DNA of 64,000 nt from assembly GCF_023703795.1 (NCBI RefSeq), contig NZ_CP098518.1:1674001-1738000 (forward strand), read 5' to 3'. Under the pieces are notes generated by a model. That model did no database searches, was not told where the DNA came from, and worked only from the letters and a program-made list of their open reading frames with translations. The translations under genes and the position numbers were made by a program. This DNA is from Haloplanus sp. HW8-1. GTDB taxonomy: Archaea; Halobacteriota; Halobacteria; Halobacteriales; Haloferacaceae. Positions 11,981 to 17,042 of this stretch are shown in pieces (the stretch's first letter is position 1; every line of letters starts with the position of its first letter).

Positions 11981-14900
11981 CTACGACTCCTCCAGCGCCA
12001 GCGCCGCCAGCATCGCCTCCAACTGCACTCGCTCGTTGGCGCCCTCGGTGATCCGGTAGTCGGCCTCGCCCAGTCGCTCCATCAACTGGACCGTCCGCCG
12101 GTCGCCGAGGTCGAACTCCCACGCCGACCGGTGGAGTTGATCGATCACGTCGCCGCCCGCCATGCCCGAGTCCACGAGGAGCGTCTCCAGCGTCGACCGC
12201 GCACGCGGGAAATCTCCCTCGATCGCGGCCTCGACCATCGATTCGATCTCCTCGGGGCGGGCGGTGCTGGTGACGGTGTAGACGGCCTCCTCGTCGACCA
12301 CCTCGCCGGTCGTCGCCGCCGCCTGCAGCGTGTTGATCGCCCGTCGCATGTCGCCGCCGGCCGCGTAGACCAGCGCGTCGATGCCGGCGTCGGTCACCTC
12401 GATCCCCTCCGCCTCGGCGATCTCGCGGGCCTGTGCTTCGATCGCGTCGTCCGGCAGCGGCGAGAACCGGAAGACCGCACACCGTGACTGAATCGGGTCG
12501 ATGATCCGACTGGAGTAGTTACACGAGAGGATAAAGCGGGTGTTGTCCGCGAACTGCTCCATCGTGCGACGAAGTGCTGACTGGGCGTCGGAGGTGTTGT
12601 GCGTCAGTATTCCGTTAGCGAGCATGAAGTTCGGCGTCCCCTCCATGCTGATGTTGTAGGCTTCTCCGCGGTGGCTGTGTTCGATACGGCTGATTCCGAC
12701 GGTTGGGACCGATTGCAGGCCCCCGTCCGACAGGACGGCCGGATCGAACTCGGACCGTTCGTAGTGTTCGTGGTGGGGGAGATCCCCGTCGCCGACGACG
12801 ACGAACGTGTATTCGTCGCCGTAGGTTTCGAGGAACTCTTCGACCTTCTCCGTCTGCCCCCACAGTTCGGCGACCCCTTTGACCTCGATGACCGTATCGT
12901 CGACCAAGAAGTCGGGATGGTACACCGATTCGGACAGTTCGAACGCCGGCTCGTACTCGTAGTCGATATTCGCGTCCTGTAACGCTGTTCCGACTTCGTA
13001 CTCCCAATCCGACCGAACGAGGTGACCGAGTTCGTCGCTATGTCTGACGTTTCCTCCCGTGGGATCGTGTCCCTGTAATGCGTCCGAGACCTTCCGTGCA
13101 ACCTCGGGATCGCGCATGGGATTGTTGTCGCCACGGATATCACAGACCGGGTAATCGCAGTTCTCGACGCTCTTTTCGATGACCGCTGCCTTTTCCTCGT
13201 CGCTGAGACTCGCCCACCACTCGGACGAAGCCTCCCCGATCTCGTCTTTGACCCGTTCGGGATCGGCGTCGACGACCCACTCCTCCCACGAGGTTCCGGA
13301 CCGCATCTCGCTTATCGTTTCGCGGACTCGCGCGACCGTCTCGTCGTCCATCTCCCAGACGTGGGTCCCGTGGAACGCTCCACCGTAGTTCGGGTTGTTC
13401 TCGCCAGCGAACCGCCCGTCAGAGAGTTTCTCGACGATCTTCTGACGCCGTTCGTCCGACCACGTCGTCCCGTGCATCGGGTTCCGTTCGCCGCTCATAT
13501 CCCGGCTGTGTCCCTCGTCCTTGCAGTCGACGGAGCAGAACCGCCCGGCCGTCCAAGCATCACAGATTTCGCACCGCGACACGCCGATGTCGTCTTTGAA
13601 ATCCGCGATCTCGTCTCCCGGGGACAGGTCACGCAACTCTTTTTCCACGAGTTGTCCCTCTTCGTCAACTACGAAGAATGGGTGGCTCAAACTCGCTAGG
13701 ATCGTCCGACCGTCCTCTAGTTCCATCTCGAAGAAGTCCGCGACGCCCGAATCGACGAGTTTTCCGCTGTCGGACTGGATCACGTTCGTCTCGAAATCGA
13801 CCGATGGAATCGGTTCTCCCTCCTCGCTCACCTCCTCTATCGGCTTCACTTCGGGTTTCGACGGATACCCGGTAACCACCTCAGTCCCCGGCGGCACGCA
13901 CAACGAGTCCGCCTCGTCGAGGAATATAACTCGGTAGTCGAACCCACCGAAAGAAGACCGCGCGAAGTTCTTGATTCGGTCGCGCACCACGTCGATGCCG
14001 CGCTGGTCCGAGGCGTTGAGTTCGAGGAAGTTCCCCCGCCAGTCCTCGCCGTACACCTCGCGGGCGATGGCCGTGGCGCAGGTGGTGTTGTGCATCACCG
14101 TCGGCACGCTACCGGCGACGTAGTTGCGAGTTCCGGGGACGGTGAGGTCGTAGACTCGCTGCGGTTCGTCGACACGCTCGACCGATTCGACTTCGTCGAA
14201 GTAGAGGTCGGCGTCCGTGAGCGTGTGTAACGTCGTGAGTGCGTCGAGCACTTCGTCGGACAGCATTCCAGCCGCGACGGATCGGAGACGATCCGCGACG
14301 GTTCGGAACCGTGTCAACGACCCGAGGTCGTTGCCACCGTCGAGGAGGCTCTGTACGTCCGTCCCACGCATCTCGGTTCCCTCGGCAACGTGGGCGTACG
14401 GAACGCCTAGCACCTCGATCCCGTCCGCAAGCTTCGTTCGAACGTGATCTATGTCGACGTCAGCACCGATCCCGTCGAGGCGATCAAGGAGTTCTATCGT
14501 GCGCTCGCTTCCGGGCGTCCGCCGTCCGTCCGCATATTCCAGGAGCCGGTCGGGCCGGACGCCGACCTGTTCTGTGAGCGTTCGACGCATCTCGATGGGC
14601 TCCAGTTCGCCTCGTGTGCGGAGCCATTCCGCAGGGATCGCCACGGTTGTGTCGAGGTCGGCGGCGAGTTCGTCGATCCGTTCGAGCGTCCGCTGTGCGT
14701 CTTCGAGACGCCCCGTGGCAGCGTCGACGAGATCGTCCACACGGTCGAGATACCGCTCGCGGCCGGGCGACTCGGGATTCAGGCTCTCCGGAACGTGGTC
14801 GCCTTTCGTCAGGTAGAGCGGCTCACAGAGCGTGTCGACTGCCGTCTGTGTCGGTACCGTGTCGTCGTTCGGGTTCGAGTCGCGGGCGACGTTGTCCGCG

Positions 14901-16345
14901 AGTCGTTCGGCCTTTCGGTCGATCGTGAAGCCGATCTCGTCGGCGAACCGTTCGAGATGGTCGGAGCTGGAGACGTACAGGGTGTGGTACTCCCGTTCGG
15001 TTCCCGACCCGTTCGTCGGCGTCTTCCGCTCGCGCTTGCGTCTGCTCGGGATTCCGAATCCCGAAAGCAAGTACGAGAGGAGCGTGACGAGGCGTTCGTT
15101 CTTCTGTGTCAGTTCGATCACCCCGCCGTCAGTAACGTGTGCCTCGGCGTCGAAAACGGCCCGGAGGAACGCCGCTCGACTCGACCCGTCGGCGCGTACG
15201 AGCGCGGAGCCGACACCGTCCGTCCCGCCCATGGCGTCGAAACAGGATTCGAGGAAGTGGGTCAGCGTCCGGGTATTGATCTCCCGGTACGGAACGCCGT
15301 CCTGTATCCCCTGCCGCGGCTCGACGCCGAACGCCGACTCGGCCGCCGTCTCGAATCGGTCGAGCAATCCGTCGTCGGTGTTGTAGAACTTCACCCGCCC
15401 GCCGTCTATTCGAGCCTCGCTCACGGCCAATCCGACGAACGACGCCAGCGTCGGTGTGAGTTCCCACGGCGGCGTTATCGGAGCGGATCGCTGGTTGTTG
15501 CGGTTGACGTACTGGACGGCAGTGACGTGGTTCCGTAGCTCGTCGTGAGAAACGTCGATGTCACGGAGATACGACAGCGAGCAGACGGTACTCGGTTCGT
15601 CGAGGGATACGTCCAGCGTCCGGCGATACGACTGCACCGTCTTCTTCGGGGTGCCGGCGGCGTCGGCGATGGTGTCGTCCGACTCTCCCCGTCTGAATCC
15701 AGCAACGGCGCGCTTCTTTATGCCGACGTAGCTCTCCTCGGCCGGGATGTCGTGTTGGGCGGCGAACGCCTCGGTGACGTGAACGAACGTCCGGTCGCCG
15801 TCCATCGCGTCGATCCAGTTCAGCCGATCCGTTCCCTGCGGAAGTGGGGACCGTCGCGGGCGGACCACGCGTGTACCGGCGTCGAGGTCACCGGCAGGAA
15901 GCCACTCCAGTCCGTCGTGACCGATAGTCAACAGTCTGTGTTCCGGCGTCACGGTCAACTCGTTACCGTCACGGGTCGTGACACGAACGAGGTCGTCCGT
16001 CGTTTTCCCGAAGACGTGCGACGGCGCCATGAACTCGAATGAACCACGTTCGTCGAACGTCAACACTTCTAGGTCGTCGTCCGGAGGGGCGAACCCGTCC
16101 ACGTCGTCGACGATCTCCCCGATCCGTTCGACCCCGCGATTCGTCAGAACCGGCGTCTCGCCGGTTACGCACTTGCCGATGCCGGCCGGTCCCGAAAACA
16201 GGAGGTGCGGCAGGTCCTCCTGTGCGATGTAGCTTTGCAGTCGGTCGACGATGTCGTCCTGTCCTTTCACGTCCGCCAGGGTCTGCGGGCGGTACTTCTC
16301 GATCCAGATCTCCCGCCCCGCCGCCGACCCCTCGGTATCGCTCAT
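11981..16345 (-). CDS. rfcS: replication factor C small subunit interrupted by two inteins
   Basis: Subunit of the clamp loader that opens PCNA onto primed DNA. The 1454-residue precursor contains three extein pieces (residues 1-58, 754-815, 1251-1454) that join into a 324-residue RfcS, the usual length. Extein 1 ends in Walker A ('GPAGIGK'), extein 2 carries '[18 protein letters not shown]' and Walker B ('[10 protein letters not shown]'), extein 3 has the sensor region '[11 protein letters not shown]' and the 'SRC' motif. The inteins therefore sit in the two most conserved ATPase motifs. Translation starts at the ATG at 16345 ('[20 protein letters not shown]'); the open frame extends upstream without conservation. 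Activity requires both splicing events. A divergent SAMP2-GNAT gene starts 80 bases upstream. Confidence 0.95.
12596..13900 (-). other. intein 2 of RfcS (435 residues) with zinc motif, NUMOD3-like repeats and a PD-(D/E)XK-like nuclease, inserted after Walker B
   Basis: Residues 816-1250 of the precursor. Splicing blocks are '[16 protein letters not shown]' at the start, '[14 protein letters not shown]' (H888) as block B, and '[15 protein letters not shown]' before Thr+1. No LAGLIDADG motif is present. Instead there is a four-cysteine cluster (C925, C928, C937, C941), three NUMOD3-like units ('GERNPMHG' 952-959, 'GENNPNYGG' from 981, '[14 protein letters not shown]' from 1072), and a Vsr/PD-(D/E)XK-like fold: '[11 protein letters not shown]' (E1115), '[16 protein letters not shown]' (D1145, E1154, K1156). 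A sampled 60-base line here (13561) has 35 G/C, below the 41 at 12121, suggesting separate origin. Confidence 0.88.
14087..16171 (-). other. intein 1 of RfcS (695 residues, LAGLIDADG-type), inserted in Walker A
   Basis: Residues 59-753 of the precursor. The N-terminal splicing motif is '[13 protein letters not shown]' after 'GIGK'; block B is '[14 protein letters not shown]' (H136); the C-terminal end is '[14 protein letters not shown]' followed by the Thr of the next extein. These are standard self-splicing elements (Cys1, TxxH-like, penultimate His, terminal Asn, Thr+1). The endonuclease region has two LAGLIDADG-like motifs, '[15 protein letters not shown]' (acid E310) and '[14 protein letters not shown]' (acid E401), both with their acids, plus an HTH-like '[17 protein letters not shown]' before them. 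A long region after the second motif makes it larger than most inteins. Confidence 0.93.
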
Positions 16346-16424
16346 ACCGTATCGAAGGGGGCGGTCGCCACATAAACTGAGTGGAACCCGAAGGTTCAGG
16401 GCGGTCGGCCGACTCCCCTCGACC

Positions 16425-17042
16425 ATGCCGACGGTTCGTGTCGAGGTGGTGGGCGAGGGGAGCCGACGGCTGGATCTCGACGCCGACGCCACCTACGGCG
16501 ATCTGCTCGTGGCCCTCTCCTTTAGCCCTCACGAGGCGGCCGTCCTCGTCGACGACGCTCCCGTCCCCGAGGACCGCCCGGTCGACTTCGCGGCCGACGA
16601 GGTGCGTGTCCTCAGACTGGTGAAGGGGGGGACGAACGCGGACGAGGGATCGGCGACCACGGTGGACGACCGCGTGCGGGTCCGCCCGGCCGCCGCCGAC
16701 GACCACCTCGACGTGATGCGCGTCGTCGACGGCGCGATGCTGACGGCCGACGCCGAACGGGTGCGGGACCGCATCGACGCGGGGACGGTCCTCGTGGCGA
16801 CCGTCGAGGGCCGGGTCGTCGGCGCCCTCGTTCGGGAGGGCGACCGGATCACCGCGGTGGCGACCCGCCGGCGGTGGCGGGGGCGGGGCGTCGGCACAGC
16901 GCTCGTCTCGGCGGCCGCCGAAGGCCGGGAGCGTCTCGTCGCCGCGTTCGACCCCGGCCTGCGTCCGTTCTACGAGTCGCTGGGGTTCGAGACAGAACCG
17001 ATGGGGGACGGCGACCGCCTCCGCGGGCGCTTAGAGCGGTAG
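16425..17042 (+). CDS. SAMP2-like ubiquitin-fold domain fused to a GNAT N-acetyltransferase
   Basis: A 205-residue two-domain protein. Residues 1-69 ('[18 protein letters not shown]' to '[10 protein letters not shown]') match the MoaD/ThiS/SAMP2 type of beta-grasp modifier, including the '[17 protein letters not shown]' core and a Gly68-Gly69 pair at exactly the place where free SAMP2 ends. No stop follows; after a short linker '[13 protein letters not shown]' comes a GNAT domain (about 83-205) with the acetyl-CoA motif '[17 protein letters not shown]' and '[11 protein letters not shown]'. Free SAMP2 is both a protein modifier and a tRNA-thiolation sulfur carrier; it needs an exposed C-terminal Gly-Gly. 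If this one is used that way, cleavage after Gly69 would be required. Divergent from rfcS; its last 12 bases overlap the convergent neighbour. Confidence 0.85.

Follow-up and report, generated by a model that had tools for sequence, protein, structure and literature searches.

A SAMP2-acetyltransferase fusion with an internal Gly-Gly, fixed in Haloplanus, as a probable precursor of a ubiquitin-like modifier

Within the 64,000-nucleotide stretch of the Haloplanus sp. HW8-1 genome analysed here (the window), a single forward-strand frame at 16425-17042 encodes 205 amino acids followed by TAG. The product joins the ubiquitin-like modifier SAMP2 to a GNAT acetyltransferase. The features of the locus are as follows.

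11981-16345, reverse strand: divergent replication factor C small subunit gene with inteins (open reading frame; Rep_fac_C, 80.3 bits; start at 16345 deduced from the translation)
16388-16400, forward strand: CCGAAGGTTCAGG element, shortly before the start codon (almost unchanged in the upstream sequences of Haloplanus)
16425-17042, forward strand: complete SAMP2-GNAT fusion gene (translation, 205 codons plus TAG; 12/12 Haloplanus genomes fused alike)
16425-16631, forward strand: SAMP2 domain, residues 1-69 (PF21965, NF041919, phmmer against PDB 2l32/4hrs)
16626-16631, forward strand: codons of Gly68-Gly69, with a predicted processing site after Gly69 (invariant in 12/12 Haloplanus; pN/pS; pLDDT)
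16632-16676, forward strand: variable linker, residues 70-84 (pN/pS 0.835 and 90 gap cells over 12 species; residues 69-74 at pLDDT <50)
16677-17039, forward strand: GNAT acetyltransferase domain, residues 85-205 (PF13508; Foldseek; invariant R152, G155 and G157)

In-frame codons run upstream as far as an ATG at 16251. Conservation across the genus begins at Met 16425, shortly after the conserved CCGAAGGTTCAGG, and the N terminus reads MPTV in 11 of the 12 Haloplanus proteins and MQTV in one. Conservation thus supports a start at Met 16425, and CCGAAGGTTCAGG may be a promoter. The neighboring replication factor C gene, which marks the samp2 locus, is interrupted by inteins (two Intein_splicing stretches), one of which carries a LAGLIDADG endonuclease domain (LAGLIDADG_3).

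Residues 3-69 match the Pfam SAMP2 family PF21965 at 81.8 bits (cut-off 27), and the curated SAMP2 cut-off of NCBIfam NF041919 is exceeded (93.4 bits versus 70). The same part of the protein aligns with the solved Haloferax volcanii SAMP2 (HVO_0202; PDB 2l32, 4hrs) at an E value of about 1e-15 (phmmer); the two belong to the same SAMP2 equivalog family and share the terminal motif LRL(I/V)KGG. In the fusion this motif is LRLVKGG, the last Gly of which is residue 69. The Gly-Gly (residues 68-69) is internal, with 136 residues beyond it, no stop codon lies in frame between Gly69 and the GNAT domain, and the encoded C terminus has no Gly-Gly. Haloferax SAMP2, by contrast, ends at Gly-Gly (with two further residues in a few species), and its gnat gene is separate. 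Given that a C-terminal Gly-Gly is not encoded, the gene is best named a SAMP2 precursor fusion. An earlier note on this DNA had described a SAMP2 fused to a GNAT acetyltransferase with an internal Gly-Gly; translation and the family models confirmed this architecture, and the coordinates 16425-17042, the residue range 1-69 and the LRLVKGG motif were exact.

Where Haloferax SAMP2 has Lys58, through which its chains form, the fusion has Arg61 (window 16605-16607), and Haloplanus SAMP2s have Arg. The sole lysine of the SAMP2 domain in the window is Lys67, beside the Gly-Gly; chains of the Lys58 type should therefore not form.

In the GNAT part, residues 119-189 match PF13508 (41.6 bits; cut-off 27), and the acetyl-CoA loop R-x-x-G-x-G is present as RGRGVG at residues 152-157, with R152, G155 and G157 invariant. 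Foldseek places the domain in the GNAT fold (Ard1 4pv6 and AANAT 1l0c among other matches, E about 1e-8), the best structures being scattered over several GNAT classes; in a search of NCBIfam equivalogs for a substrate class, none scored above its cut-off. An AlphaFold2 model of the fusion (mean pLDDT 93, pTM 0.65) has both domains folded, with residues 69-74 disordered at pLDDT <50. An N-terminal modifier domain, a Gly-Gly at the junction and a linker predicted to be exposed together give the protein the layout of a ubiquitin-like precursor.

SAMPs need a free C-terminal Gly-Gly for adenylation by UbaA and for conjugation. In Haloferax, adenylation of SAMP2 by UbaA serves both protein conjugation and, by way of NcsA, the thiolation of tRNA. 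The earlier note had offered two readings of the internal Gly-Gly, a cleaved precursor and a permanent fusion that steers acetylation. Comparative evidence makes it very probable that the fusion is a polyprotein precursor, cut after Gly69 by a desampylase so that both SAMP2 and the GNAT enzyme are freed.

Each of the 12 Haloplanus genomes carries a single SAMP2, and in each it is fused to GNAT, in proteins 68-81% identical to that of the window. K-G-G is invariant in the 12, and the linker differs in length and sequence. Recurrence of the same fusion in 12/12 genomes excludes both a frameshift artefact and chance; a sequencing error, or a recent stop loss in a single strain, to which we assign a practically negligible probability, is ruled out by this recurrence at 68-81% identity. 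A non-proteolytic origin of free SAMP2, through programmed frameshifting or through termination at the junction, is also highly unlikely. The window genome does have a run of seven G at this point (AAGGGGGGGACG), but the run is not conserved, the corresponding sequences in Haloplanus including AAGGGCGGC and AAAGGCGGC, and no junction stop occurs in any of the 12 genomes. The variation of the junction sequence across the genus largely refutes such a mechanism. The earlier note had held that a stop after Gly69 would speak against its proposal, and that separate and fused forms should be surveyed among relatives; no such stop is present, and the survey found fused genes in 12/12 Haloplanus and mostly separate neighboring genes elsewhere in Halobacteria.

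A second, free SAMP2 gene, which the earlier note had named as evidence against a precursor, was looked for in the window's genome with the protein and with PF21965, and none was found. The remaining beta-grasp proteins of this genome are SAMP1-, SAMP3- or ThiS-like, none of them SAMP2. All SAMP2 of the cell must therefore come from the fused copy, the only one in the genome. Elsewhere in this genome, two divergent ThiS-like genes adjoin each other (L038, C1:2616600-2617169), one of which ends in APMRE and lacks a C-terminal Gly-Gly.

In a codon comparison of the 12 Haloplanus fusion genes, pN/pS was 0.44 in SAMP2 residues 1-62 and 0.046 in LRLVKGG; the linker stood at 0.835 and the GNAT domain at 0.455. 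The lowest value of the gene is thus that of LRLVKGG, and the linker, with 90 gap cells, evolves almost neutrally; the Gly-Gly at the junction is constrained independently of the sequence that follows it. Because LRL is also a core strand, part of this constraint is structural, and our argument rests on K-G-G. Synonymous changes at the Lys and Gly codons indicate that there has been enough time for K-G-G to be lost. The third residue of K-G-G begins the predicted disordered stretch; disorder at residues 69-74 in the AlphaFold2 model leaves no apparent structural cause for the retention of Gly-Gly, and a functional cause is apparent.

These values bear on the possibility of a permanent bifunctional protein, in which the SAMP2 domain would dock the acetyltransferase, for example to UbaA, NcsA or sampylated proteins. 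Adjacency of samp2 and gnat across much of Halobacteria indicates that the products may be functionally linked, and both domains of the model are well folded, as such a protein would need. A permanent fusion would, however, free the Gly-Gly from selection, and yet LRLVKGG has the lowest pN/pS while the linker drifts. It would also leave the genome with no free SAMP2 despite the retention of UbaA and NcsA, and it accounts for neither the redoxin fusions nor the dependence on a JAMM protease of the desampylase type, both described below. We therefore consider permanent fusion a poor candidate. Steering of acetylation by the beta-grasp domain is accordingly disfavored and may apply to an uncut fraction of the protein.

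As in Haloferax volcanii, UbaA, NcsA and a member of the desampylase family are encoded in the same genome as SAMP2. UbaA scored 516.6 bits against NF047750 (cut-off 450), and an NcsA-type tRNA thiolase scored 411.8 bits against NF047749 with a partial query, residues 1-207 of 322; the latter protein carries a TtuA LIM domain. The desampylase scored 156.6 bits against NF041370 (cut-off 130) and has an intact E...HSH...SxxD motif. The genome that encodes the fusion thus also encodes a candidate Gly-Gly-directed protease, this predicted desampylase. The desampylases of Haloplanus fall into subtypes: genomes G000 and G075 have one and nine others another, with none detected in the incomplete G077; we assume that the G000/G075 subtype is active on SAMP2. 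The G000 desampylase sits in a sulphur-metabolism cluster. In the window's genome, at C1:2368000-2384000 (L393), the desampylase gene (C1:2377643-2377957), which is of the G000/G075 subtype, adjoins rhodanese and TusA-like genes, with a cysteine synthase, a ubiquitin-like protein ending in GGRV and a second E1 a few kb away; this cluster resembles a sulphur or cysteine pathway that works through carrier proteins.

The link between SAMP2 form and protease was examined across the order. Matches to PF14464 in 392 genomes were bimodal, with a strong class at E <1e-14 and a weak one at 1e-8 to 1e-13, and we took E <1e-14 as presence of a desampylase-type JAMM, a threshold picked once the bimodal distribution was known. 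By the NCBIfam desampylase model NF041370, which has a cut-off of 130 bits, strong-class representatives qualify as desampylases with 156.6 and 185.8 bits, and one from the weak class, at 19.1 bits, does not. Among genomes for which both JAMM and SAMP2 form were known, a tailed or fused SAMP2 was found in 54 of the 120 that have a desampylase-type JAMM and in 0 of the 92 that lack one, 70 of these 92 having entered in a later targeted round. By genus, extended SAMP2 is found in 19/45 with the protease versus 0/26 without (Fisher p = 4e-5), in a correlational test whose genera are not fully independent; a genus-level permutation stratified by family gave p = 0.0015. One fused genome with no desampylase-type match, G077 (79% complete, about 100 contigs), was left out of the test.

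Outside Haloplanus, samp2 and the orthologous gnat are separate neighboring genes in Halobacteria. The gnat gene is present in nearly all Haloferacaceae and, in most loci examined, lies directly 3' of samp2, often overlapping it or no more than about 60 bases away; a redoxin gene separates the two in several genera. Halorussus (10/10 sampled genomes) and the genera g15, g17 and g28 instead have SAMP2 fused behind KGG to a redoxin that matches AhpC-TSA/Redoxin. The loci are these.

Halorussus, SAMP2-redoxin fusions: L107, L111, L115, L116, L118, L120, L123, L167
Further SAMP2-redoxin fusions: L005, L233, L217, L219, L223

In a quick tree computed with no support values, fused redoxins fall among the free ones as three distinct clusters, namely Halorussus, g15 with g17, and g28. 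With the GNAT fusion added, SAMP2 seems to have undergone about four independent fusions; two events are counted as certain because the partners, GNAT and redoxin, differ.

Shorter extensions are widespread. Scored from the DNA directly and not from annotation, many free SAMP2s have 1-17 residues beyond Gly-Gly, and SAMP1 and SAMP3 extend 1-5 residues past it in most Haloplanus. Tails such as SGGTQ, AGGT and SGGRV are seen in Haloplanus ubiquitin-like genes (L033, L034, L037, L291-L312), among which a further ubiquitin-like protein is also tailed. An encoded extension is thus common for SAMPs in the haloarchaea sampled, and with tails on SAMP1, SAMP3 and this further protein, most Haloplanus SAMPs would need trimming. 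Of 83 extended loci, a count that includes duplicate records of one genome, 64 have a small residue (A, G, S or T) directly after Gly-Gly; this fits a protease site, although such residues are frequent in linkers too.

Taken together, cleavage of a precursor is favored because LRLVKGG has the lowest pN/pS beside a nearly neutral linker, no second SAMP2 exists, the SAMP2 pathway enzymes are kept, redoxin fusions occur elsewhere and no extended SAMP2 was found without a desampylase-type JAMM in the association test. The precursor proposal of the earlier note has in this way gained strong comparative support from selection, pathway and desampylase link, and the cleavage itself is what we infer from them. 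The chain is predicted to form two folded units, the SAMP2 beta-grasp and the GNAT domain, with an exposed and disordered linker between them. The cell's desampylase, a JAMM/MPN+ protease of the HvJAMM1 family, would cut after Gly69, freeing a mature SAMP2 that ends in Gly-Gly, which UbaA could then adenylate for tRNA thiolation by NcsA and for protein conjugation as in Haloferax. The GNAT enzyme would be freed with a short N-terminal tail. The fusion probably arose through loss of the stop codon between the operon neighbors samp2 and gnat and, judging from the distribution of the protease, could have become fixed because a desampylase that trims anything after Gly-Gly was already there. We favor a tolerated stop loss over a purposeful arrangement because the linker is unconstrained and alternative redoxin fusions exist.

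A purposeful variant would leave some of the protein fused, with regulated cleavage tying the level of free SAMP2 to the acetyltransferase, or with the GNAT domain acting on the lysines that are targets of SAMP2. This is a refinement of the cleaved-precursor reading, not its opposite. The operon is conserved, the fusion is fixed in 12/12 Haloplanus and the fused architecture yields SAMP2 and GNAT in equal amounts, all of which such partial processing would accommodate; the unconstrained length and sequence of the linker argue against it, however, as do the alternative redoxin fusions, which speak against a GNAT-specific role of being fused. We regard it as improbable. Comparably speculative is a broader proposal, in which extended SAMP2 would be the general precursor state of haloarchaea, the desampylase would be obligatory for maturation, and regulated cleavage of the GNAT and redoxin forms would link the supply of modifier to enzyme release. 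If so, the coupled enzyme would be an acetylation or redox enzyme of the same pathway as SAMP2.

Precursors made as ubiquitin fusions are usually taught as eukaryotic, and eukaryotes do make ubiquitin as fusions cut by proteases. The processing of ubiquitin-like precursors as such is already known in archaea as well. HvJAMM1 cleaves a linear SAMP1-MoaE fusion precisely past Gly-Gly in vitro, and its cleavage of this fusion in vivo depends on Gly-Gly and restores function (PMC4443979). That fusion was engineered in Haloferax with SAMP1, whereas the one described here is natural, fixed in a genus and built on SAMP2. Caldiarchaeum subterraneum likewise has ubiquitin and SAMP precursors with C-terminal extensions, processed by the JAMM proteases CsRpn11 and CsJAMM, the latter cutting SAMP precursors (PMC6043591); the CsUb extension is nine residues, compared with a whole enzyme in Haloplanus. 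MoaX of Mycobacterium tuberculosis (MoaD-MoaE) also occurs naturally, as a beta-grasp sulphur carrier joined to an enzyme, and must be cut after Gly82, at an internal Gly-Gly, to function (PMC4326299). MoaX, however, joins two subunits of one enzyme, and in Haloplanus the partner, an acetyltransferase, is not known to take part in the SAMP2 reaction. Eukaryotic ubiquitin- and Fubi-ribosomal protein fusions (for example, Fubi-S30; PMC10611586) resemble the proposed precursor in that the modifier lies N-terminal to an unrelated useful protein and is released after Gly-Gly; their partner is ribosomal, their proteases are non-JAMM deubiquitinases such as USP36, and the arrangement is not homologous. 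Thaumarchaeal Ubl-Cgi121 is another archaeal beta-grasp fusion conserved throughout a lineage and differs from SAMP2-GNAT in both ubiquitin-like family and partner (PMC2948915). Other ubiquitin-like fusions, and ubiquitin-like genes adjoining peroxiredoxin genes in Thermococcales, appear in the 2010 survey of Makarova and Koonin. We found no published SAMP2-GNAT or SAMP2-redoxin fusion in the open-access literature, and natural, convergent SAMP2-enzyme fusions tied to a desampylase appear to be new.

In conclusion, to the archaeal precedents for processing of extended modifiers, Caldiarchaeum and the engineered Haloferax fusion, we add SAMP2-enzyme fusions that are fixed in genera, have several origins and two types of partner, and are found only together with a desampylase-type JAMM. 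Fused ubiquitin precursors can thus evolve out of neighboring operon genes. The archaeal desampylase gains a testable second role, in which it would act in maturation of the modifier beside its removal. The samp2-redoxin-gnat neighborhood hints at unstudied partners of SAMP2.
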